A stretch of DNA of 64,000 nt from Bacteroidota bacterium (GTDB lineage Bacteria > Bacteroidota > Rhodothermia > JANXDC01), in assembly GCA_025059945.1 (NCBI GenBank), contig JANXDC010000005.1, positions 1 to 64,000 of the forward strand, read 5' to 3'. Shown here piece after piece: positions 20,731 through 55,426 of the stretch. Positions within the stretch are counted from its first letter, which is position 1; every line of letters begins with the position of its first letter. The notes under the pieces were generated by a model. That model made no database searches. It was not told the origin of the DNA and saw only the letters and a list, made by a program, of their open reading frames with translations. Both the position numbers and the translations under genes were made by a program.

Positions 20731-22629
20731 ATGCGGATGCGTATTGCGGCTCTGTTTTTACTTCTTGCCAGCGCAGACCTATACGCCCAATCCCTGCTGT
20801 GGCCCACCGACGCCAGCCGGCTGCTGGGATCCGGGTTTGGCTCGGACCGGGAAAACCGTTTCCATATGGGCATCGACATCCGCACCAATCGGCACACAGG
20901 GTATCCGGTCTACGCCATAGCCGACGGTTACGTCGACTCCGTGGCCGTAAGCCCGTACGGTTACGGTAAGGTGCTCTACATCACGCATCCTGACGGCTAC
21001 CGCTCCGTGTACGCGCACCTGGAGCGGTTCGCCGGGGAGTTGGATTCGCTGGTGGCGCGCCTGCAGCGGCAGAGCTGGAGCTACCGGGTGGCGCGCAAAC
21101 TCCCCCCTTACGCCTTCCCGGTCCGGGCCGGTCAGGTGATCGCCTACTCCGGGGATACGGGATCGGGCCCCCCGCATCTGCACCTGGAGTATCGCGCCCC
21201 CGGGGATGTGGCCGTTGACCCGTTGCGCTACGGGCTAGGCGGCGTGCGCGACCGCATGCCGCCGGTCTTCTACAGGCTGGCTGTGCTACCGCTTTCGGAC
21301 TCCTCGCGCGTGATGGGGACGACGGAACCATACGTTTGGACGCTGCGCAGAAGCCGTTTTGCTCCGATTCGCCCTGCTCCGCCGCTGCGCGTACAGGGGG
21401 CCGTGGGGCTGGCCGTGGAGGTCATCGACTACATGGAGCATTCCGGATATCGGTTGGCCGTTCCGGAACTGGAGCTCTGGGTGGAGGGCCGGCGGGTTTT
21501 CGCCCGCAACCTCCATCAGATCCCCTACCGCCATCAGGCGGCTTATGATCTGGATCGCGACTACGGATTGCGCGTGCGCACAGGCCGTCCGTTTGTGCGC
21601 CTGTGGCGGCATCCGGCCAACCCGCTTGCGGCTTACGTGGGCACGGGCGTGCTCCGGTTGCCCCCGGGCAGACATCGGTTGCGCATCATCGCCCGCGACG
21701 TCTGGGGAAACGAAAGCGCGCTTGAGGGCCTGCTGGAAGTCGCCGATCCCATCCCTCCGGAGGTCCCCCCGGCGGACTGGGGGGCTCGGACGCTCCGGCC
21801 GCAAACGGGCCCCGGTCCGCTCATAGAGGCGACAGAGCAGGAGCTAGCCTGGATCACGCTTCCGGAGGCGAGCCCTGCGCTTGTGGTCGTATACGCCGAC
21901 TCCAGCCGACGCCTGTACCGACCGACCAACGGGCGGGCGCTACTGCGCTGGCCCGTTCATCCGAGGCCCGTAGCCCTGGAGTGGACGACCCTAGATGGCG
22001 AACGCCGCCGACTGGACCTGCGGCTGTTTCCGGTTCCGGCTCAGCGCGAGCTCACGATTCCAAGCTTTGAAGGCCAGGGGTGGGTGCGCTTTTTCCGGCC
22101 CTCCCTGTTCGGAGAAGGCTTAATCGGGCTGCACAGCGCAGAGCCCAATGAGCTGCTGGTGGAGTTTCCCACACCGCTTCTGGCGGACTCCTTCCAGGTC
22201 ATCCTACGGCCCGAGGGAGCCGCAGCAGGTGATCGGAGTTGGGGCCTATACCGTCAGGTGGGATCGGGCTGGCGCTACGTGGGCTCCCGCTGGGAGGGAG
22301 AAACGCTTGTGGCGGCCAGCTCGCTTCCGGGCCGCTTCCGGGCCATGCGCGACACCCTGCCCCCGCAGGTCCGCTTCCGCCCTCCTCCTAGAGCGAGCGC
22401 GCAGCCCCTGCTTGTACGCATCTGGGATGAACGCTCCGGGATCGACGACAGGGCCCTAGGCCTCTGGATCAACGGAAGACGCCAGATCCCCGTGTACGAC
22501 CCCGAAGCCGGGGGGATCCGGCTTCCGCCCCCGAGGGAATGGCCGCCGGGCCGGCATGAGATCCGCGTGCGCATCTCGGATCGGGCGGGCAATACGGTGG
22601 AACGGACTTTCGGCTACAGCCGCCCCTAA
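20731..22629 (+). CDS. M23 family metallopeptidase with C-terminal beta-rich extension
   Basis: A 632-residue secreted protein with a signal peptide ending near residue 19 (LYAQ). The LytM/M23 domain covers roughly residues 20-170: HMGIDIRT supplies the first zinc ligands, and PHLHLEYR the HxH pair. Such domains cut or bind peptidoglycan cross-links. The first motif reads HxGxDI, so zinc binding looks intact and activity is plausible. The remaining 450 residues look like tandem immunoglobulin-like strands (IRDRMPP, PPEVPPADW, DTLPPQVRFRPPPRAS), as in Bacteroidota M23 proteins. It converges on porX with a four-base overlap. Confidence 0.87.
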   Translation: MRMRIAALFLLLASADLYAQSLLWPTDASRLLGSGFGSDRENRFHMGIDIRTNRHTGYPVYAIADGYVDSVAVSPYGYGKVLYITHPDGYRSVYAHLERFAGELDSLVARLQRQSWSYRVARKLPPYAFPVRAGQVIAYSGDTGSGPPHLHLEYRAPGDVAVDPLRYGLGGVRDRMPPVFYRLAVLPLSDSSRVMGTTEPYVWTLRRSRFAPIRPAPPLRVQGAVGLAVEVIDYMEHSGYRLAVPELELWVEGRRVFARNLHQIPYRHQAAYDLDRDYGLRVRTGRPFVRLWRHPANPLAAYVGTGVLRLPPGRHRLRIIARDVWGNESALEGLLEVADPIPPEVPPADWGARTLRPQTGPGPLIEATEQELAWITLPEASPALVVVYADSSRRLYRPTNGRALLRWPVHPRPVALEWTTLDGERRRLDLRLFPVPAQRELTIPSFEGQGWVRFFRPSLFGEGLIGLHSAEPNELLVEFPTPLLADSFQVILRPEGAAAGDRSWGLYRQVGSGWRYVGSRWEGETLVAASSLPGRFRAMRDTLPPQVRFRPPPRASAQPLLVRIWDERSGIDDRALGLWINGRRQIPVYDPEAGGIRLPPPREWPPGRHEIRVRISDRAGNTVERTFGYSRP

Positions 22630-24182
22630 GGCCCGCGTGGCTCCAGAACGGCCACCGGCAGGAGCATCTCCTCCAGAGACACCCCGCCGTGCTGAAAGGT
22701 GTCGTAGTACTGCTGCTGATACCGGTGGTACTGCGTCGGATACACGAAGTAGTAGTCCTCTTTGGCCAAGATGTAGTTCGTGTTGACACCGCGCCGGGGC
22801 AGCCGGTACGTGAAAGGATCCTTAACGAAGATGGCGTGTTTCGGGTCGCATTTGAGGTTGCGGCCGTACTTGTAGCGGAGGCTTGTGCTCGTGTCCCGGT
22901 CCCCGATGACCTTTGTGTCGCGCAGGGCGCGCACGGCCCCGTGATCGGTCGTGATCACCAGATGCACCTTCTGCTCGGCAAGCCACCGCAAGAGCTCATA
23001 GAGCCAGGAGTGCTCCAGCCACGTGCGCGTCAGATTCCGATAGGCGCGCTCATCCGGCAGGAGCTCGCGCAGCACGTTCGAATCGGCCCGGCTGTGGGCC
23101 AGGATGTCCAAAAAGTTCACCACAACCGCGGCCAGTTCCCCCTGTAACAGCGCGGAGGCCTGTTGCAGGAGGCTTTTGCCCTCGGCGGAGCTCAGGACCT
23201 TCTCATAGCGTGCGCGCACCCCTATGCGCAGCCGCTTGAGCTGATCCTCCAGGAGCGCGTCTTCGCGGCGGTTTTGGCTCCATTCGTCCTCTTCGGCGCT
23301 CCGCCAAAAATCCGGAAACCGACGTTCGATGTCGGCCGGAAAAAGACCGGAAAAGAGCGCGTTTCGCGCATAAGGCGTGGCCGTGGGTAGAATGCCCAGA
23401 TAGAGCTCCCGCTGAATGCGAAAGTACGGTTGCAAAAGCTCCTCGAAAACGAGCCACTGATCGTAGCGCAGGCAATCGATCACAAACCACACCACGGGCC
23501 AGCCCCGACCAAGCAGGGGCGCAACCCAGCGCCGCAGCACATCCGGAGACATGGGAGGGCGTCTGTCCGAATCCGCATGCACCCACTCCGGATAGACCCG
23601 CTCTATAAAGCGCCCGAAGGCTCGGTTGGCCTCTGCGCGTTGCTCCTCCAGCACCTGTCGAAGAGCCTCGTCTCCGTGCTCCAGCTCCAGATCGCGGCGC
23701 ACCAGACGTTGGTATAGCTCCGCCCAGGCGGCAAAGGAGTCGGCCTCTTCAATAGCCGCGCTTAACTCGGCGAACTCCTGCCGATACGAGAAGAGCACCC
23801 GCTCCTGCTGCAGCCGATGCCGCTCCAGAAGGCGTTTGCAGACAAGCAGCAGCTGGTTGGGGTTGACGGGCTTGATGAGGTAATCGGCGATCTGCGCCCC
23901 GATGGCGGCGTCCATGAGATGCTCTTCTTCGCTCTTCGTGACCATCACGACCGGAACACCCGGCCGGCGGCGCTTGATCTCCTCCAGCGTTCTTAGCCCC
24001 CCCCATCCGGGCATCTGCTCATCGAGCAGGATGAGGTCAAAGGGCTCCTGTTCTACGAGCACGACCGCGTCCTGGCCGTTGGAGGCGGTGCGCACGCCGT
24101 AGCCCTTGGATTCCAGGAACAAAACGTGCGGCCGCAGCAGTTCGATCTCATCGTCGACCCATAACAGACGCCAACGGTCCAT
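22626..24182 (-). CDS. porX: PorX-like response regulator with PglZ phosphatase-like domain
   Basis: A 518-residue protein. The N-terminal receiver domain has Asp10-Asp11 and the phospho-acceptor Asp54 (ILLDEQMPG), with the Lys in YLIKPVN. A helical linker leads to a PglZ/alkaline-phosphatase-like domain from about residue 190 (VVWFVIDCLRYDQWLVFEELL; TTDHGAVRA near 430). This arrangement and length are those of PorX, which with the kinase PorY regulates the type IX secretion system in Bacteroidota and binds zinc and nucleotides. ATG at 24182 is set by GGAGG 6 bases upstream. No porY or T9SS structural gene lies in the window. Confidence 0.9.
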   Translation of the reverse strand: MDRWRLLWVDDEIELLRPHVLFLESKGYGVRTASNGQDAVVLVEQEPFDLILLDEQMPGWGGLRTLEEIKRRRPGVPVVMVTKSEEEHLMDAAIGAQIADYLIKPVNPNQLLLVCKRLLERHRLQQERVLFSYRQEFAELSAAIEEADSFAAWAELYQRLVRRDLELEHGDEALRQVLEEQRAEANRAFGRFIERVYPEWVHADSDRRPPMSPDVLRRWVAPLLGRGWPVVWFVIDCLRYDQWLVFEELLQPYFRIQRELYLGILPTATPYARNALFSGLFPADIERRFPDFWRSAEEDEWSQNRREDALLEDQLKRLRIGVRARYEKVLSSAEGKSLLQQASALLQGELAAVVVNFLDILAHSRADSNVLRELLPDERAYRNLTRTWLEHSWLYELLRWLAEQKVHLVITTDHGAVRALRDTKVIGDRDTSTSLRYKYGRNLKCDPKHAIFVKDPFTYRLPRRGVNTNYILAKEDYYFVYPTQYHRYQQQYYDTFQHGGVSLEEMLLPVAVLEPRGP

Positions 24183-24250
24183 CTTGCGCCTCCGCACCGA
24201 CTTGTGTCTTCTTCGTCTGAAAGATCGCGCAGGTTTCCGGAGCACGCGAT

Positions 24251-38625: not shown

Positions 38626-40656
38626 GTGCGCTGCACCGCAAGCCAGCCTATCGGCCTGTTGGGCTTGCTCTTTCTGCTTTGGGCGGGCTGCCGGGGAGCG
38701 CAACCCGATGCACCCCCGGAAAGCGTAGATGCGTTCGTGGGGGATTCGGTCTGCGCCTCTTGCCACGGCGATATCGCGGCCCTGTACCGGCGCACCCCCA
38801 AGGCGCAGGCCCTCTACCGGCTCGCCCCGGATCGGGTGGTGGAGGATCTCAGCGGCCAAGAGGCCGTCTATGAGCCCCGAACGGGGTTTTACTACCGTGC
38901 CTTCCGTCAGGGAGATGCGTTTTTTCAGGAGGAATACCGGCTAGATGCCCGAGGCCGCAAAACGCATCGGCTCGTCTATCCCATGCAATACGTGGTGGGC
39001 TCGGGCAACGCCGCGCGCACATACCTATACGAGGAAAACGGATACCTCTTCCAGCTGCCCCTGAGCTGGTATGCGCAGAGCGGCCGCTGGGGCCTAAGCC
39101 CAGGCTATGAGCGGGCCAACGCGCGTTTTTTCCGCCCAATCCGGCAGGCTTGCCTGGGCTGCCACACGGGCCATTTTAGGCCTGTTCCGGAGACGAGCAA
39201 TCGATACGAGGCCTTTAGCCTGGGCATCGGCTGCGAACGCTGCCACGGACCGGGGGCACGACATGTGGCCCTGCACCGAGGGGGCAAGCGGTCCAGAAGC
39301 GGACCCGACACCACGATCCTCAACCCCCGGCGTATTCCCCCGGAGCGGCGCCTGGACCTCTGCCAACAATGCCATCTGGAGACAACCGTATCCTTCTATC
39401 GGGAGGGCAAAGGGCCGCTGGACTACCGACCGGGTCGGAGGCTTTCGGATTACTGGGTCGCCTTCGTCGACTCTGCCCTTTCGGCGAGCACGGTGCAGGT
39501 CGCAAGCCATGTGGAGCGCATGCAGCAGAGCGCCTGTTTCCGAGGCAGCCGAGGGCGGCTGGATTGCCTGAGCTGTCATGACGCGCATCGCGCAAGCCGC
39601 GAATTAGGTCCGGAGCACTTCAACCGGATCTGTCAGGGCTGTCACGACCTCGGGCGCCTCTCGCGGGGCCCGCTCGCCGCCACGCACGGGCCTGAGGCCC
39701 CGTGTACTTCCTGCCACATGCCCCGGATCCGGCCCAGCGCCGTGCCCCATGCGGCCTTCACGGATCACGCCATCCCGCGCCGACCCGATCGGCCCCCCTC
39801 CGGGACACCTCCGCCCCAGAGGACCAGCGGGCAGCTTACGCCGGTCTTCGCGGAACTCAGGCGGGATCCGGCTTATCCGGTCTACGAGGGCATCGCCTAT
39901 CTTGCCTACGCCCGCGAACATCCCGAAACGAGGGCCCTAGAGCGGGCCATCGACCGCCTGCTGCGCGGGCTACGGGAGGTCCCCGGCCATGCCGAAGGAT
40001 GGTACCTGCTGGGATACGCCTACGAATGGCGGGGTGAGCGAAGCCGGGCTCGCGCGGCCTACGCCCGGGCCGCGGCGCTTGAGCCCACAGCGGAGCGGCT
40101 GCTGGCCCTGGCGCGCCTGGCGGAATGGGACGGAGACTGGAAGGAAGCGGAACGGTGCTATCAAGAGGCGCTACGACGCCAGCCCGAGCTTCCGGAGGCG
40201 CTCACGAACCTGGGCCGGCTTTTGGAGCTGAAAGGACGCCTTGCGGAGGCGCGCACCTGTTACGAACAGGCCGTGCGCCTGCGGCCCAGCTTAGCGGAGG
40301 CGCGCTTCAACCTCGGCACTTTGCTTGTTCGGCTGGGAGCGCCCCAAGAGGCCGAAGCGCACCTTCGGCGGGCTGTTGCGCTAGAGCCCGATTACGCCAA
40401 GGCGCGCAACAATTTGGCCGTTCTGCTCGCCCAAACGGGCCGCCTTCAGGAGGCCATCGCCGAATGGGAGGAGGTGGTGCGCCTGGAGCCGGCGCATGCG
40501 GACGCGCTTTTCAATCTGGCCCTCGCCTACGCGCAAAACGGCCGGCTGCGCGAGGCCCGCAGGATGGCGGAGCGCTTTCTGCAGCGCTACCCCGATGAGC
40601 CCCGATCCGATCGGCTGCGCGCCCTGTTGGGGGGCTCCTCCTCCGGATCCCAGTGA
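38626..40656 (+). CDS. Seven-heme c-type cytochrome lipoprotein with C-terminal TPR domain
   Basis: A 676-residue lipoprotein: lipobox WAGC gives Cys22. Seven CxxCH sites are seen in order: CASCH (Cys43), CLGCH, CERCH, CQQCH, CLSCH, CQGCH and CTSCH, all within the first 370 residues, so the protein binds seven hemes c outside the cytoplasm. From about residue 405 onward it carries a run of TPRs (YEWRGERSRARAAYARAAALEP, then LEPDYAKARNNLAVLLAQTGRLQEAIAEWEEVV). The first half resembles NapC/cytochrome c554-type multiheme proteins. It may pass electrons to a TPR-bound partner. The GTG start at 38626 is the best lipoprotein start. Confidence 0.88.
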   Translation: MRCTASQPIGLLGLLFLLWAGCRGAQPDAPPESVDAFVGDSVCASCHGDIAALYRRTPKAQALYRLAPDRVVEDLSGQEAVYEPRTGFYYRAFRQGDAFFQEEYRLDARGRKTHRLVYPMQYVVGSGNAARTYLYEENGYLFQLPLSWYAQSGRWGLSPGYERANARFFRPIRQACLGCHTGHFRPVPETSNRYEAFSLGIGCERCHGPGARHVALHRGGKRSRSGPDTTILNPRRIPPERRLDLCQQCHLETTVSFYREGKGPLDYRPGRRLSDYWVAFVDSALSASTVQVASHVERMQQSACFRGSRGRLDCLSCHDAHRASRELGPEHFNRICQGCHDLGRLSRGPLAATHGPEAPCTSCHMPRIRPSAVPHAAFTDHAIPRRPDRPPSGTPPPQRTSGQLTPVFAELRRDPAYPVYEGIAYLAYAREHPETRALERAIDRLLRGLREVPGHAEGWYLLGYAYEWRGERSRARAAYARAAALEPTAERLLALARLAEWDGDWKEAERCYQEALRRQPELPEALTNLGRLLELKGRLAEARTCYEQAVRLRPSLAEARFNLGTLLVRLGAPQEAEAHLRRAVALEPDYAKARNNLAVLLAQTGRLQEAIAEWEEVVRLEPAHADALFNLALAYAQNGRLREARRMAERFLQRYPDEPRSDRLRALLGGSSSGSQ

Positions 40657-43902: not shown

Positions 43903-44892
43903 ATGTCAACCAAAAATTGCATCATTGGCTTTCTTCATAAAAGGATCGAACTCCGGTTGCCCCTGGCGGCGCTTGTCGCGTTCGGATGCGCACCCTCCGG
44001 CCCGCGGGCTACGGAGCTAGAGGTGGGCTGGACAACTTCGGTCCTGGCTGCTCCCCTGCTCTGGGCGCAGGCTGAGGGGTTGCTGCCTGAGGGAGCCGCG
44101 CTGCGGTTTCGGCGCTTTCCGTCGGAGGCCGCCCTGCTTGAGGCCCTGCGCTCTGGGAGGCTGCAGGCCGGATTAGTGGACTTCCTGGAGGCCGTTCGGA
44201 TGCAAAGCGAGCGTCCGATTTGGCGCGTTCCGCTCGTGCTCGGCATGGCATCCCGGCATCCGATCCTAATCGGTCGGGCCGTAGAATGGTCGGATCTGGC
44301 GCGACATCGCATCCCTGTGGTAGCCGGAGGCCGAGAGCATTTTTGGGCGGAACGCCTGCTTCTGGAACGCGGTCTGCTGCCCAGCCGCGCCGCGGCCCTG
44401 CTGGATCCGCTGCCGCCGGATCGGTTTGGCCCGCTTGCGGAACGCGCGCCGGTGCGCTTTGCGCTCTTGGACAGCGTGCCACCGGGCTGGAGCGTGCTGG
44501 CGCGCGCAGAGCGGTTGCGCACCCCGCCGATGTGGGTGCTGCTGATCTCCGACTCTGCGGCGCACCGATACCGCCGCGAGCTTCTGGCCTTGCTTGCGGG
44601 CTGGGCCAATGCGCTGGTCCGATGGGAGGCCGCACCTGAGGTCGCCTCTGCCCGATGGGCCGCGCTTATGAACGGCTCCGCTGAAGCCATGCGGCGCGCT
44701 GTGGCTCTGTATCGACTGGGCACGCCCCGACTGAACGAGGAGCTCTTAAGTCCCGGCGGGCCCCTATGGGCCTATCAATGGGCCGCGCATCGGTTCTGGG
44801 TCCGCCAGGGCCGCATAGCGCGCGACGCCCCGGTGCGGCCCCTACCGGACCCCGAGGGGTGGCGGGCGCTTTCTAGAGGAATACGGCGTTGA
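43903..44892 (+). CDS. ABC-type substrate-binding lipoprotein (NMT1/SsuA-like)
   Basis: A 329-residue (from ATG 43903) protein with a lipoprotein signal ending in LVAFGC. The mature part is a two-lobed periplasmic-binding fold: LEVGWTTSVLAAPLLWAQAEGLLP at the start, then FPSEAALLEALRSGRLQAGLVDF (the loop seen in NMT1/SsuA sulfonate and nitrate binders). The ligand is not evident and no permease or ATPase is adjacent. ATG at 43903 has no ribosome site; TTG at 43957 with AAGGA upstream is a possible start. It overlaps the kinase gene by four bases, so a sensor-partner role is plausible. Confidence 0.72.
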   Translation: MSTKNCIIGFLHKRIELRLPLAALVAFGCAPSGPRATELEVGWTTSVLAAPLLWAQAEGLLPEGAALRFRRFPSEAALLEALRSGRLQAGLVDFLEAVRMQSERPIWRVPLVLGMASRHPILIGRAVEWSDLARHRIPVVAGGREHFWAERLLLERGLLPSRAAALLDPLPPDRFGPLAERAPVRFALLDSVPPGWSVLARAERLRTPPMWVLLISDSAAHRYRRELLALLAGWANALVRWEAAPEVASARWAALMNGSAEAMRRAVALYRLGTPRLNEELLSPGGPLWAYQWAAHRFWVRQGRIARDAPVRPLPDPEGWRALSRGIRR

Positions 44893-47189
44893 ACGGCCCG
44901 TTTCGCCATAGCCTCTACTACCGGATCGCGATCGGATGGCTGTTGCCCATCACGATCGGCCTGGTGGCGTTCGTGGTTGTTCACTGGCAGGGCGTCTATC
45001 GCGCCTTTTTGGAGGAGGCCCGCGGGCGGGCCGAACAGCTAGCCGTCTCCTGGAACACGCTTCGACTCGGGAATGGAACGCAAGAGCTCAGCGGTTATGC
45101 GCTGGAGCTGGTCTCCCGACACGGCCTTAAGCTGCTTTGGGAGGTCGACTATCGATACCGGATTCGCTACAGCCATCGACCGGCCGAGCGGCTTCGGCCT
45201 GTTCCGGATTCCTATCGGGGCCTTGTCGCGCAGGTATTGGCCCTCCGCACGCCTTATTGGGGTCGCTCTCCAGAGGGCGATCTGCTCTACGCTTATCCGC
45301 TTTGGGGGGTGGAACCCGACGTCGACCCTCAAGACCCGGTCGGGGTGCTGCTCGTAGAGCAGCCTCGATCAGCCCTCCGAGGCGCCTTTTGGGGCTATGT
45401 GGCCCGCAGCTTGCCCCTCGTGGCGGGCATCTGGTTGTTCGTGGTCGGAGCGCTGATGCTGTTTACACACCGACGGCTTGTGCGGCCGGCCGAACGCGCC
45501 CTCTCCCTGGTAGAGGCGCTTCAGGCTCGGCGCGCCGTCGAGGGGCCGGCCCCGAGGGAGCCGGCCCGAGATGAACTAGAGGGCCTGCTTGCGCGGCTCT
45601 ACGCGCTAGCCCAGCAGTGGAGCCAAGCGCCCGAAGCGGAGTACGGACGTTGGTTTGCGGCGCTGCCCGTACCCGTCTGCGTGCTGGATGCGGAGCTGCG
45701 CATACGAGAAGCCAACGAGACGCTGAGCCGCTGGCTCGGTCTGGAGCCCGCCCAGTTGCGGCAAAAACCCCTGGATCAACTTGTGGCCGGGCCCGATTGG
45801 TCCGGCTGGCTAGAGCCCTTTGGGGGCGAAACCCCTTATGCGACCGCCCCGGAGCCGTGGCAACTGCCCAACGGCAGACGCGCCTATGTGCTCGCGATAG
45901 GCCGCGCACTGCCCTCAGAGGGACGTTATCTGGTCGCCTTGGTGGACGCAAGCGAACAAAAGCGCCTGGAACATCAGCTGCGCAGCTACGCCGATCACCT
46001 GGAGCAACTGATCGAGCAGCGCACCCGAGAGCTCAGCGAAGCCCAGACCTTCTTGAACAACCTTATCGAAACCGCGCAGGTCGCCATTTTCGCCTTCGAT
46101 GAAGCGGGCACGACGCAAATCTGGAATCGAAAGGCCGAACTGCTTACGGGCTACAGTCGGGCCGAGGTCCCCTCGCTGGAGGTCTTTCTGGAGAAGACGG
46201 CGGCCGAGCCGGAGGCCATTGCCGCGCTTTCGAAACTGTTTCGGCCCGCTGAGGGGCATGCGGATTTCCAGATGCGCCTGCGAAGCCGAACAGGCCGAGA
46301 GCGCGTGCTGGCCTGGTCCTCAAGCCGCATTGTGGACCGGAGTCGACCCACGGGGGCCTTTGTGGCCGTAGGCGTGGACGTTACGGAGGCCAAGGAGCTA
46401 CAGGCCAAGCTTGAAGCCCAAACCGAAAACCTAGAGCAGTTAGTGCGGGCCCGAACGGCGGAACTGGAGGCCAAAAACCAGCAGCTGGCCGCCCTTGTGG
46501 AGGAGCTCGACGACTTCACGTACATCGTCTCCCACGATTTGCAAACCCCGCTGCGCAACATCTTGGGCTTTATCTCCCTACTTGGAGAAGAGCAGATCGA
46601 ACGGCTCGACGAACACGGCCGGGAGCTGCTTGAGCTGATCAAGCAGTCCGCACAGCGTATGAGCCGCCTCATCACGGACCTGCTGGAACTGTCCCGCATC
46701 GGACGCACGCAAGCCCCGTTTATGGAGGTAAACTTAGAGGAGCTTGTGCGCACGCTTGTGCAAGAGGACTTTCCCCAGGCGCTGGCCAAGGAGCGACCGT
46801 TTGAGATCGACATCCTCACCCCCTTGCCTACGGTTTGGGGCGATCCGCTGCGCCTGCGCCAGGTGCTGCACAACTTGATCACGAACGGCCTGAAATACAA
46901 CCGTAGTCCTCTACCGCGCGTGCAGATCGGTGCATCGGAGTCGGAAAATGAGTATATAGTATATGTGCGGGACAACGGAATCGGAATCGACCCCAAACAC
47001 CATGAGCGGATCTTCAAGATCTTTCAGCGCCTGCACCCCCAAGAGGAATTCGAGGGCACGGGCGCGGGGCTGACCATCTGCCGGAAGATCGTCGAGCAAC
47101 ACGGGGGCCGTATCTGGGTGGAATCCGCCCTTGGAGAGGGAGCGACGTTTTACTTCACGCTGCCCAAGGAACGACCCGCTAGCGTATGA
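44889..47189 (+). CDS. Membrane PAS-containing sensor histidine kinase
   Basis: A 766-residue kinase. Two membrane helices (about 12-33 and 174-194) flank a periplasmic sensor region, then a HAMP-like helix, two PAS domains (about 252-370 and 387-510), a coiled coil, the dimerisation domain with phospho-acceptor His549 (YIVSHDLQTPLRN) and an intact catalytic domain (ITNGLKYNRS, DNGIGIDPKHHERIFKIFQRL, GTGAGLTICRKIVEQHGG). The start is TTG at 44889, supported by AGAGGA upstream and by overlap with the binding-protein stop. It is co-expressed with the substrate-binding lipoprotein and the REC-DHp protein. Confidence 0.93.
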   Translation: MNGPFRHSLYYRIAIGWLLPITIGLVAFVVVHWQGVYRAFLEEARGRAEQLAVSWNTLRLGNGTQELSGYALELVSRHGLKLLWEVDYRYRIRYSHRPAERLRPVPDSYRGLVAQVLALRTPYWGRSPEGDLLYAYPLWGVEPDVDPQDPVGVLLVEQPRSALRGAFWGYVARSLPLVAGIWLFVVGALMLFTHRRLVRPAERALSLVEALQARRAVEGPAPREPARDELEGLLARLYALAQQWSQAPEAEYGRWFAALPVPVCVLDAELRIREANETLSRWLGLEPAQLRQKPLDQLVAGPDWSGWLEPFGGETPYATAPEPWQLPNGRRAYVLAIGRALPSEGRYLVALVDASEQKRLEHQLRSYADHLEQLIEQRTRELSEAQTFLNNLIETAQVAIFAFDEAGTTQIWNRKAELLTGYSRAEVPSLEVFLEKTAAEPEAIAALSKLFRPAEGHADFQMRLRSRTGRERVLAWSSSRIVDRSRPTGAFVAVGVDVTEAKELQAKLEAQTENLEQLVRARTAELEAKNQQLAALVEELDDFTYIVSHDLQTPLRNILGFISLLGEEQIERLDEHGRELLELIKQSAQRMSRLITDLLELSRIGRTQAPFMEVNLEELVRTLVQEDFPQALAKERPFEIDILTPLPTVWGDPLRLRQVLHNLITNGLKYNRSPLPRVQIGASESENEYIVYVRDNGIGIDPKHHERIFKIFQRLHPQEEFEGTGAGLTICRKIVEQHGGRIWVESALGEGATFYFTLPKERPASV

Positions 47190-47902
47190 CCGGACCTACG
47201 TCGCTGCGGATCTTGCTGGTCGAAGACAACCTGGGCGACACGATGCTCGTCCGCCATACCATTGAGCGGACGATGCCGGAGGCCAAGCTGGAGACGGTCT
47301 CCACGGTCTCGGCATGCCTGCAGCGGCTGCTTTCAGGCCCTTCTGTGGATTTGATCCTCACCGATCACAACTTACCCGACGGAGACGGGCTAGAGGTCAT
47401 CGCGCACGTGCGGGAGCTGGGCCACGTAACGCCCGTGGTGGTGCTGACCGGCGTGGGGCGCGAGGACGTGGCCGTGGCCGCTATGAAGGCCGGCGCTTAC
47501 GACTACCTGACTAAAGCGCCGGATCTGAGCCATCTGGAGAAGCTGCCCCTTGTGCTGCAGGACGTGCTGCGGCGGCGGGAGCTGGAGCGGCAGCTAACTG
47601 AGCTAGAGCAACAGCGGGCCGAGCTCGAAAAGCTGAGGCTTCTGCAGCAGACCATAGCGGCGATCAATCACGAGATCAACAACCCCCTCTCCATTATTAC
47701 GGGCTACGTGCAGATGCTTCTCAGCCTGGCCTCTAGTTACCGCCTGGATCCGGAGGTGGTGCACGCCCTGGAGGCCATCAACGAGGCGGCGGAGCGGATC
47801 GCGGAGATCACCAGGCGCTTGGCGGCGCTCAAGAAGATCGTGCTCACGGATTACGTCGATACGAGCATCCTGGACATCCGGCGCTCGGCCGAAGAGAATT
47901 AG
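47186..47902 (+). CDS. Response regulator with DHp domain and no catalytic domain
   Basis: A 238-residue protein: a receiver domain (residues 7-125) with acidic pair Glu13-Asp14, phospho-acceptor Asp60 (DLILTDHNLP), Thr88 and Lys110, then a helical DHp domain with the H-box INHEINNPLSIITGYVQML, His162. There is no ATP-binding domain and no DNA-binding output. It has an ATGA overlap with the kinase gene. A plausible role is phosphorelay: phosphate from His549 of the kinase to Asp60, and maybe on to His162 (inference). It could also be a scaffold or a remnant kinase. Confidence 0.85.
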   Translation: MTGPTSLRILLVEDNLGDTMLVRHTIERTMPEAKLETVSTVSACLQRLLSGPSVDLILTDHNLPDGDGLEVIAHVRELGHVTPVVVLTGVGREDVAVAAMKAGAYDYLTKAPDLSHLEKLPLVLQDVLRRRELERQLTELEQQRAELEKLRLLQQTIAAINHEINNPLSIITGYVQMLLSLASSYRLDPEVVHALEAINEAAERIAEITRRLAALKKIVLTDYVDTSILDIRRSAEEN

Positions 47903-48462
47903 GCCCGGCGCGCCAGTCCCAGGCGCTCGGCCTCCGCGCGCAGGGCCGCGATGACGTGTCCGATGTGCTCCTCGAGCGGCAACCCCAACTCCTCTGCGCC
48001 CCGCCGAAGCTCCTCCCGACCTACGGCCGCCGCAAAGGCCTTGTCTTTCATCTTCTTGAGCACAGAAGAGGGCTGCAGGTCTTCTATTCCTTGAGGCCGC
48101 ACGTAGGCGCAGGCCAATACGAAGCCGCTCATCTCATCGACCGCGTACAGCGCTCGGGCCATAAGGCTCTGACGGGGCACACCCGTGTAATCGGCGTGGG
48201 CCAAGATGGCCTCCAGCCAAGACTCCGGAAGCCCTAAGGTGCGCAGATAGGCCACGGCCACGTAGGGATGCTCCTCTGGCGAGGGATGACGTTCATAGTC
48301 CAGATCGTGCAGCACCCCTACGATACGCCAGCTTTGCTCATCTTGGCCGAAATGGCGGGCGTAATAGCCCATGGCGGCCTCCACGGCGTATAGGTGCCGC
48401 CTGAGAGACTCCGCCTGAATCCAACTTTCCATAAGACGGCGAGCCGCCTCAAGCGAAAACAT
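47899..48462 (-). CDS. HD domain-containing protein
   Basis: A 187-residue HD-fold protein. The metal-site motif is GVLHDLDYERHP (His-Asp near residue 64), with AILAHADYTGVPR and LYAVDEMSGFV completing the set. Such proteins hydrolyse nucleotides or other phosphates; the substrate is unknown. ATG at 48462 is preferred: an upstream in-frame start lacks family sequence. It is convergent with the REC-DHp gene (four-base overlap) and is the last gene of the nine-gene envelope array, 67 bases after the TonB-like gene, so it may be loosely coupled. Confidence 0.82.
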   Translation of the reverse strand: MFSLEAARRLMESWIQAESLRRHLYAVEAAMGYYARHFGQDEQSWRIVGVLHDLDYERHPSPEEHPYVAVAYLRTLGLPESWLEAILAHADYTGVPRQSLMARALYAVDEMSGFVLACAYVRPQGIEDLQPSSVLKKMKDKAFAAAVGREELRRGAEELGLPLEEHIGHVIAALRAEAERLGLARRA

Positions 48463-48529
48463 CACACCTGGCTCCCCTGCTGCTGGTGGCCTCAAAGGTA
48501 GGGGCGCGCAACGGCCGGAGCAAAGGGCT

Positions 48530-53734: not shown

Positions 53735-55426
53735 TCAGAGCCCAGCCTTTAGGAGCTTACGCCAACTTACGCGGCCGTCTATAGAAACGCGCAGCAGATA
53801 CAGGCCCGGAGCTACAGGCCGGCCGTCCGCCGCGCGGCCGTCCCAGTACAAGGCCGCCTCCGAGCCAAGGGCGGTGGGCTGTTCAAGCCTCCGAAGCCGC
53901 TCTCCGGTAAGAGAGAAGACCTCCGCCCGCACGGATCCCGCGCTTCGCAGGGGTATCCATACGCCCCTTTGAAACGGGTGCGGATACGGCGCACCTAACT
54001 CCTCTTCCGGCTCGAGGGGCGCCTCCGCGGAAAGAGCCGTGGCTTGGGCGAGCAAGCGGGCCGCGTCTAGAATCCCATAGCCGTAGTCGTTGTTGGGGCG
54101 ATCGGCCAAGTGAGCGGATCGGCGCGCCAGCGCGATTAACTCGCGCGGACGCAGGCCGGGGGACCGTTCAAGCAGCAGCGCTAGAATCCCCGTTACAATC
54201 GGGGCGGCAAAGGAGGTGCCGCTACCCTGGGCATAACCACCCGAAGGGGTGGCCAGGACGACGCCTACGCCCAAGGCGCAGACGTCGGGCTTGATGCGAC
54301 CATCGTACGTAGGGCCCCGGCTGCTGAAGGGGGCCAAGGAGCTATCGGCCCGCACGGCTCCGACGGCGATCACGGAGTCTCCGTCGGCGGGGGCCACTAT
54401 GTAGCGCCACGGACGCGCCCCCTCGTTGCCCGCGGCGTTGATCACGAGCACCCCGCGGGAGGCGGCCCGCTGGGCCGCGCGCGTAACCAAGGTGGTTCGC
54501 CCGTCCATGTGGGTGTAGCTGTAATCGCCGATCCCGCCGTCAAAAGTCGTATAGCCCAGCGAGGAGTTCACCAGCCGGGCCCCTTGAGCCTCTAGCCACT
54601 CCAGCCCAGCTACCCAGAAGTCCTCCTCTTGGCGCGTTTCCGAGCTGACGTCCTCGGTGCGGGCCAAGAGGACCTCCGCTCCGTAGGCCGGGCCGATAAG
54701 ACGGCCCGGATGATAGCCTACGGCCACCGAGAGCACGGCCGTGCCGTGGCTAGGGGTGTTGGAGACGTCCGCGTCTCCCTCTACAAAGTCCCGCGCGCCC
54801 TTTAGCCGCCCCTCGGCCAGCAGGGCGCGAAAGGCAGGACTGGTGCGCACCTCAAAACCGGCATCCAAAAACCCGATACGCACCCCCCTACCCGAAAGAC
54901 CCTGCGCGTGCAACCGGAACACGTTCGAGAGGGCCAGTTGCGCCCAGGAGGGCCCGTAATCGAGCCCCGTAGCCCCGCGCGAAAGCCCTTTGGGAAGCGC
55001 CTCCTCCGGAAGCGGACGCAGCTCCACGGGATCGGGTCTGACAAAGCGGGCCACGGGCCGCACGGCGCGCACGAAGGGCAGCCGCTCCACCTGAGCGCGC
55101 TGCGCCTCCGACAGAACGGCCGATACGGCGTTAAACCACCGGCTCTGCGCCACAGGCTCGACGCCGATTGCCTGCAAGGCCCTTACGTACTGCGAACTTA
55201 CGGGCAGGTCTTCTTCCGACCATAGCGGCCCCTCACCGGCCTGCAGGCGTCGAGCTAGCGCCTCCGGGGTAAGCCAACGCAGATCCGCACTAGCCGACCC
55301 GGATAGCGTCTCCGGTTTGTCCTGAAAGAAGATCCAATAGCGCGTCTGGCCCCAAAGAGGCTGCGCGACCCACAGCACGGCCAGCAGCGACCAGGACCTC
55401 CAACGCCCAGACACGCTGGCGATCAT
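53735..55426 (-). CDS. Subtilisin-like serine protease with a C-terminal sorting domain
   Basis: A 563-residue secreted S8 protease. A signal peptide precedes a propeptide; the catalytic triad is Asp188 (IGFLDAGF), His227 (NTPSHGTAVLSVA) and Ser405 (GSGTSFAAPI), with Asn333 of AAGNEG as the oxyanion residue. The last about 80 residues (PYPHPFQRGVWIPLRSAGSVRAEVFSLTGERL, then GLYLLRVSIDGRVSWRKLLKAG) form a type IX secretion-like sorting domain. Together with PorX this suggests secretion through T9SS. The gene overlaps moxR by four bases, so it is translated after it. Confidence 0.93.
   Translation of the reverse strand: MIASVSGRWRSWSLLAVLWVAQPLWGQTRYWIFFQDKPETLSGSASADLRWLTPEALARRLQAGEGPLWSEEDLPVSSQYVRALQAIGVEPVAQSRWFNAVSAVLSEAQRAQVERLPFVRAVRPVARFVRPDPVELRPLPEEALPKGLSRGATGLDYGPSWAQLALSNVFRLHAQGLSGRGVRIGFLDAGFEVRTSPAFRALLAEGRLKGARDFVEGDADVSNTPSHGTAVLSVAVGYHPGRLIGPAYGAEVLLARTEDVSSETRQEEDFWVAGLEWLEAQGARLVNSSLGYTTFDGGIGDYSYTHMDGRTTLVTRAAQRAASRGVLVINAAGNEGARPWRYIVAPADGDSVIAVGAVRADSSLAPFSSRGPTYDGRIKPDVCALGVGVVLATPSGGYAQGSGTSFAAPIVTGILALLLERSPGLRPRELIALARRSAHLADRPNNDYGYGILDAARLLAQATALSAEAPLEPEEELGAPYPHPFQRGVWIPLRSAGSVRAEVFSLTGERLRRLEQPTALGSEAALYWDGRAADGRPVAPGLYLLRVSIDGRVSWRKLLKAGL

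Follow-up and report, generated by a model that had tools for sequence, protein, structure and literature searches.

A receiver-DHp protein without a catalytic domain, encoded behind a solute-binding protein and a sensor kinase in a Bacteroidota bacterium, and its relatives in the phylum

We analysed a stretch of 64,000 nucleotides from a Bacteroidota bacterium (assembly GCA_025059945.1, contig JANXDC010000005.1, positions 1 to 64,000; hereafter the window), and in particular three genes at positions 43903-47902. These encode a solute-binding protein (the binder), a sensor histidine kinase and a protein in which a receiver domain (REC) is joined to a dimerisation and histidine phosphotransfer (DHp) hairpin that is followed by no catalytic (CA) domain. 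Judged from its residues, this REC-DHp protein can probably carry phosphate at two sites and cannot use ATP. We tentatively favour the view that the operon encodes a ligand-sensing multi-step phosphorelay, in which phosphate would pass from the kinase to Asp60 and then to His162 of the REC-DHp protein, and from there to a separate NtrC-type regulator, so that the protein would resemble a fusion of Spo0F and Spo0B. Of more interest than the operon itself is the larger group of DHp proteins lacking a catalytic domain in which this protein falls; these proteins look like an overlooked class of relays or phosphatases. The features of the operon are as follows:

43903..44892, + strand: divergent NMT1/TauA-type solute-binding protein (predicted), with residue 29 as candidate lipid Cys; hhalign 96.7% over 269 columns against NMT1_2
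44889..47189, + strand: membrane sensor histidine kinase with two PAS domains, HisKA and HATPase_c (Pfam; sister 70% identical)
46533..46535, + strand: predicted phospho-acceptor His549 of the kinase, in SHDLQTPLRN (H-D-x-x-T box)
47186..47902, + strand: REC-DHp protein without catalytic domain, 238 amino acids (Pfam, AF2; sister 85% identical)
47207..47539, + strand: receiver domain, residues 8-118, active-site residues intact, nearest to the Rcp1 and LvrB receivers
47363..47365, + strand: Asp60, predicted phosphorylation site of REC
47636..47896, + strand: DHp hairpin, approximately residues 151-237, formed by the end of the long helix 115-185 and helix 189-237
47669..47671, + strand: His162, predicted phospho-acceptor, in an H-E-I-N-N box
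47681..47683, + strand: Asn166 at position +4, the phosphatase-type residue of HisKA domains (role: PMC3510030)

The three open reading frames (ORFs) of 329, 766 (TTG start) and 238 amino acids overlap by 4 bases at both junctions, with TTGA between the binder and kinase genes and ATGA between the kinase and REC-DHp genes. This confirms the arrangement observed in the original prediction, which had been made from the letters of the window. A sister species of the same genus, the only other genome of the same order in the comparison set, shows the three genes in an identical order and on the same strand. It retains the overlap between the kinase and REC-DHp genes, but not the one between the binder and kinase genes, where a gap of about 10 bases is found instead. 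Protein identity between the window and the sister climbs along the operon, from 59% for the binder to 70% for the kinase and 85% for the REC-DHp protein, and the corresponding ratios of nonsynonymous to synonymous substitution rates (dN/dS) are about 0.25, 0.18 and 0.09 (NG86, with dS near saturation). On the opposite strand, a gene at 47899-48495 encodes a protein that appears HD-domain-like by eye, without Pfam support. Its stop codon overlaps that of the REC-DHp gene tail to tail, and this 4-base overlap is likewise present in the sister.

The third protein had been described as a receiver plus a DHp histidine with no catalytic or DNA-binding domain, and this description holds. Pfam detects Response_reg (5e-19) and HisKA (3e-11) and nothing else. 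No HATPase_c domain was found by Pfam, no DNA-binding or enzymatic output domain was found, as only HisKA lies behind REC, and neither Pfam nor the structural model revealed a degenerate catalytic-like domain in the style of Spo0B or ChpT. The active residues are intact, namely the acid pair E13/D14, D60, T88, K110 and H162, as are E163 and N166. The AlphaFold model (AF2, 20 aligned rows; mean predicted local distance difference test, pLDDT, of 92) consists of REC, a helix spanning residues 115-185 and a helix spanning residues 189-237. In this model the protein is predicted to carry a complete DHp hairpin that is joined to REC via the long helix. The closest matches in the PDB by both sequence and fold are LvrB of Leptospira (8vc9) and, for REC, Rcp1. 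Since there is no ATP-binding domain, the protein cannot autophosphorylate. A frameshift or assembly error as the cause of the missing catalytic domain was rejected, because the convergent HD gene overlaps the stop codon here as well as in the sister, and the high identity to the sister protein together with the low dN/dS indicates that the gene is not a broken one.

We examined how widespread such proteins are. A family profile was used to scan 85,000 species genomes, and the best 80 loci were examined, a few of which were incomplete or unresolved. Almost all of these best 80 loci encode REC-kinases with a catalytic domain, and one clear CA-less case was found among them, in the same class as the window. 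When 395 genomes from the phylum were searched with a profile, CA-less REC-DHp proteins came to light in families f24, f27, f30, f35, f41, f42, f47 and f56, and within the class of the window they occur in f1, f12, f15 and f18, which brings the total for the phylum to at least 12 families. In the tree, the members from the class of the window form one supported clade (100/96). At least three changes are needed in this tree to account for all CA-less proteins, which may still share a single origin. The REC-DHp module is old and widespread, whereas the binder and the outer domain of the kinase were found in this genus only. Our literature search found no publication that describes CA-less REC-DHp proteins.

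Among 29 CA-less REC-DHp proteins, the phospho-acceptor His is kept in 26. In the other three (L214, L220, L230) Gln or Asp stands at this position, and in places the entire box is lost. The position following the His (+1) is Glu in 22 of the 29 proteins and His in four, the latter including f42 (L211, L215, L217) with its AHHINN box; at position +4, Asn is present in 25 and Gln in two. For comparison, 40 of 41 REC-kinases have Glu or Asp at +1, with Thr (27/41) or Asn (10/41) at +4. It should be noted that these counts, in both groups, do not represent independent events.

A graded loss of the receiver is seen within the class. The proteins of G206-208 (f18) and G165 (f15) have no neighbouring kinase, and their REC lacks the acid pair and the Thr, and in G165 also the Asp; the H-E-[IV]-N-N-P-L box is intact in all of them. 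In other f18 species the same locus, between a gene for a metallo-beta-lactamase-fold protein and a PorV-like gene, encodes a DHp alone:

L225:6003-6260, L241:6396-6647, L242:6008-6277 and L243:6043-6300: DHp-only proteins of 83-89 residues

All four DHp-only proteins keep the His and an acidic residue at +1, with Asn at +4. In a comparison of two f18 species, REC is 48% identical and DHp 79%. The decay of REC while DHp is conserved, together with the presence of DHp alone at the same locus, indicates that selection keeps the DHp. It is a tentative but realistic proposal that the CA-less DHp proteins, comprising REC-DHp, pseudo-REC-DHp and the stand-alone DHp of 83-89 residues, make up a class of histidine phosphotransferases (or receiver phosphatases) at the level of the Bacteroidota that has gone unrecognised. 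They would feed regulators of the orphan NtrC type and others, and the window operon would then represent the instance of such a module placed under a binder-coupled kinase.

In the proposed relay, the periplasmic NMT1-type binder, tied to no transporter, would present the bound ligand to the kinase's outer domain. The kinase would autophosphorylate at His549 and then phosphorylate Asp60 of the REC-DHp protein, as is suggested by the gene linkage and the Rcp1-type receiver. Within the REC-DHp dimer, His162 would accept the phosphoryl group from Asp60 of either the same or the partner chain and hand it to a receiver that is part of a regulator with its gene outside the operon. To judge from the relatives, this regulator is most likely an orphan NtrC-type sigma-54 activator. 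One chain would thereby unite roles that are split between Spo0F and Spo0B, or between SdrG and PhyT. ChpT and Spo0B (PMC9981736) as well as PhyT (PMC5898713) provide precedents for relays in which the DHp is not accompanied by an active catalytic domain. Purifying selection on the REC-DHp gene, and the adjacency of such a gene to a kinase gene in another family of the class, also speak for this reading. Work on HisKA domains (PMC3510030) showed that the kinase needs the acidic +1 residue to phosphorylate the His, that phosphatase activity can dispense with this residue, and that Thr or Asn at +4 is required for phosphatase activity only. Because the +1 acid serves the kinase reaction and not the phosphatase reaction (PMC3510030), the retention of Glu at +1 favours a phosphorylatable His. 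The retention of both positions agrees with a DHp that continues to be phosphorylated and to contact receivers, which makes a relay the first choice and a phosphatase the second.

Several observations weigh against a relay. Conservation of N166 is no less strict than that of H162, which would also suit a phosphatase; in the f42 group, +1 is His and not Glu; and the phospho-acceptor His has disappeared entirely from two small groups of relatives. In addition, REC keeps T88 and Y107, the residues of the allosteric switch, which intermediate receivers have been argued not to need (PMC9981736). Finally, no NtrC-type gene was found near the window operon, and the closest NtrC-type paralogue of the genome itself is not a resolved orthologue of the regulators next to REC-DHp genes in other families.

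The main alternative, which we consider less likely but deserving of serious attention, is that the protein is a REC-gated phosphatase. Phosphorylation of D60 by the kinase would then alter the coiled coil and toggle the DHp, with its H-E-x-x-N box, on or off as phosphatase of a separate response regulator, and no phosphate would pass through H162. Such an activity requires no ATP. The +4 Asn, required for the phosphatase activity of HisKA domains (PMC3510030), is present in 25 of the 29 relatives, with Gln in two more, and one clade has His instead of Glu at +1. Moreover LvrB, the closest solved relative, switches its DHp/CA core by phosphorylation of REC (PMC13269768). However, a phosphatase would not need Glu at +1 and would need the His weakly, yet both are mostly kept; Gln at +4, as found in the two relatives, destroyed the phosphatase activity of CrdS (PMC3510030); and the target would require a kinase of its own. 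Relay and phosphatase are easily confused, as illustrated by PhyT, which was first taken for a phosphatase and was later shown to be a phosphotransferase (PMC5898713). The view of the REC-DHp protein as a phosphorelay intermediate, put forward in the original prediction, thus stands as plausible and leading, with both phospho-sites intact and the His mostly kept even after loss of REC, although a REC-gated phosphatase fits almost as well. Overall, that interpretation is partly supported.

The loss of the His in three relatives (L214, L220, L230), in places together with the whole box, would also fit a plain response regulator in which the DHp serves just for dimerisation or for the docking of a partner protein and the His is chemically unused. 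This seems improbable, since 26 of 29 REC-DHp proteins and all four DHp-only proteins retain the His, along with the +1 and +4 residues. More doubtful still is a split kinase, with H162 as the substrate of the catalytic domain in the operon's kinase, either in trans or within a mixed dimer. The genes are adjacent and partly overlapping, Glu is retained at +1, and split kinases are known (PMC3591291). However, many relatives have no nearby kinase gene, and the window kinase has its own complete DHp with a different box (HDLQT). Least credible of all is a degenerate remnant, i.e. a decaying REC-kinase that lost its catalytic domain, with the binder and the kinase as the sole working parts of the operon. 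The architecture does equal that of LvrB without its catalytic domain, but the sister protein is 85% identical, the dN/dS of about 0.09 is below those of the kinase and the binder, the same length recurs in several families, and no trace of a catalytic domain is left, the stop codon being also the end of the convergent HD gene.

The gene neighbourhoods of the relatives provide hints as to the target of the proposed relay. In f24, f30 and f56, the genes for an NtrC-type regulator and for a single REC lie divergent from the REC-DHp gene. In f35 (L218, L219, L221) it lies right after ftsA-ftsZ and before a REC-sigma54-Fis (NtrC-type) regulator gene, which suggests a link to cell division. The f42 gene precedes hrcA, the gene for the heat-shock repressor, with grpE and dnaJ beyond it in L217, and the f27 gene follows a hybrid kinase gene. 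An adjoining kinase was not found in f24, f30, f35, f42 and f56, except for the f24 relative that lost its His (L214). The genome of the window contains several NtrC-type regulators without an adjacent kinase. When seven of the NtrC-type neighbours were queried by BLAST, each had its best match in one of these, encoded on contig C1 (354-372 bits; next 275-320). Its status as an orthologue of these neighbours is only half supported, because a tree with a poor outgroup groups the genome's own NtrC-type paralogues together and leaves orthology open. We regard this regulator as a lead and not as an identification. The statement that the final target is missing from the operon was thus correct, the relatives pointing to an orphan NtrC-type regulator, and the search for a matching orphan receiver in the genome delivered a best BLAST match without confirmation of orthology by the tree. 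A further candidate orphan receiver is encoded in the window at 22626-24245 (- strand). This protein consists of a receiver and a PglZ-like part, resembles PorX, a regulator of type IX secretion, and has no neighbouring kinase.

The window kinase has a first transmembrane segment at residues ~11-31, an outer domain at ~32-169 and a second transmembrane segment at ~170-194. Its N, G1 and G2 boxes are all present along with HisKA and HATPase_c, and the kinase is complete. Other genera of the class yielded no counterpart of its N-terminal part, save for one marginal match (E 7e-4, 32% identity over ~70 residues). In G158 (f12), a genome of the same class, the REC-DHp gene directly follows a kinase gene, and among the kinases of the window genome it is the window kinase that best matches that kinase (204 bits; next 103).

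The binder scores below the Pfam cut-off for NMT1_2 of 24.7 bits, with 19.7 bits for the window protein and 20.6 bits for the sister protein. The profile-profile comparison by hhalign listed above, for which 17 NMT1_2 proteins from the class were used, nevertheless covers its full length, with an E-value of 3.8e-10 as calculated for a single comparison; nine controls reached at most 3.6%. The binder is accordingly classified, at the level of sequence, as a divergent NMT1/TauA-type solute binder. Matches to LysR_substrate and 2-Hacid_dh_C were rejected, as they are not present in the sister protein, and a single-sequence AlphaFold model with a pLDDT of 39 was not used for fold comparison, which was replaced by the profile-profile comparison. 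A lipoprotein nature is plausible in view of a G-C pair that is aligned in the window and sister proteins; a strong signal helix was not found in a hydropathy scan. No counterpart of the binder was found in any other genus among the 395 genomes of the phylum. Since both the binder and the N-terminal part of the kinase are nearly restricted to the genus, the input side of the system, i.e. the binder and the outer domain of the kinase, is young or fast-evolving.

The original prediction had proposed that a transport-type binder without a transporter feeds the kinase. Indeed, the genome of the window yielded no second NMT1_2 protein at E 0.001 and nine permease matches, none of which is of the TauC/SsuC type: two are oligopeptide-type, two belong to sugar systems with their own binder, two to phosphate systems, one is an amino-acid permease fused to its binder, and one iron-type permease was counted twice. 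The double-permease gene of the latter (G000, contig C3, 52548-53912; L175:4510-6117) has no adjoining binder or ATPase gene. In other families of the class, genes for NMT1-type binders lie directly upstream of sensor kinase genes, several with a 4-base overlap (L252, L254, L255, L258-L262). The kinases of these transporter-free couples are unlike the window kinase and apparently HisKA_2-like. As the couples recur in several genomes, an NMT1-type binder coupled to a kinase represents a recurring design in the class. The weak NMT1_2 matches that were obtained for G206-208 and genomes related to them were set aside as they look like a different, THI5-like family; of these, L266 and L269 were inspected and neither lies beside a kinase. 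The absence of a matching permease and the recurrence of such couples make a binder that would feed the kinase rather than a transporter the best reading, and support the earlier proposal by inference. NMT1-type binders usually serve an ABC transporter, and the iron-type permease on contig C3 lacks a binder beside it. That the binder serves a distant transporter instead of the kinase is nevertheless quite improbable, given the lack of a TauC/SsuC-type permease among the nine matches, the linkage of binder and kinase in both species of the genus, and the transporter-free couples elsewhere in the class. Periplasmic binders act on sensor kinases in LuxP-LuxQ, TorT-TorS, ChvE-VirA and AioX-AioS. 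The proposed action of the window binder on a sensor kinase and not on a transporter is alike, but the window binder differs from these in being of the NMT1/TauA type.

The REC-DHp protein can be compared with several known systems. It shares with LvrB and other Rec-controlled histidine kinases the order of REC, long signalling helix and DHp, and the lvrB gene is likewise located downstream of that for a partner kinase, LvrA. However, LvrB has a catalytic domain and autophosphorylates, which the window protein cannot do. ChpT and Spo0B, which are pseudo-kinases, have in common with the proposed function of the window protein a DHp phosphotransfer without use of ATP, but they contain a degenerate catalytic-like domain and no REC, whereas the window protein has a fused REC and no catalytic domain. 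The SdrG-PhyT-PhyR system of Sphingomonas follows the same order of kinase, receiver, DHp and regulator that is proposed here, with the difference that SdrG and PhyT are two proteins, of the HisKA_2 type and membrane-bound, as opposed to one soluble fused protein. The phytochrome response regulators of the Rcp1 type are close in receiver sequence and fold; unlike the window protein, Rcp1 is a single domain without DHp.

The phylum has many response regulators without an obvious kinase. If our proposal is true, some of these regulators would owe their phosphorylation or dephosphorylation to a conserved REC-DHp family that is encoded beside them and works independently of ATP. Network maps built on kinase annotations would be wrong if REC-DHp proteins are annotated as kinases. 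The graded series of REC-DHp, pseudo-REC-DHp and DHp alone represents a natural test of what a DHp hairpin does without a catalytic domain.

Lastly, two other genes of the window deserve mention. A multihaem cytochrome-TPR gene forms one ORF in the window (38626-40656) and two overlapping ORFs in the sister (L069:14072-16115), possibly due to a frameshift in the latter. At 53735-55426 (- strand), a subtilisin-like protein is encoded, the C-terminus of which resembles a type IX secretion sorting domain.

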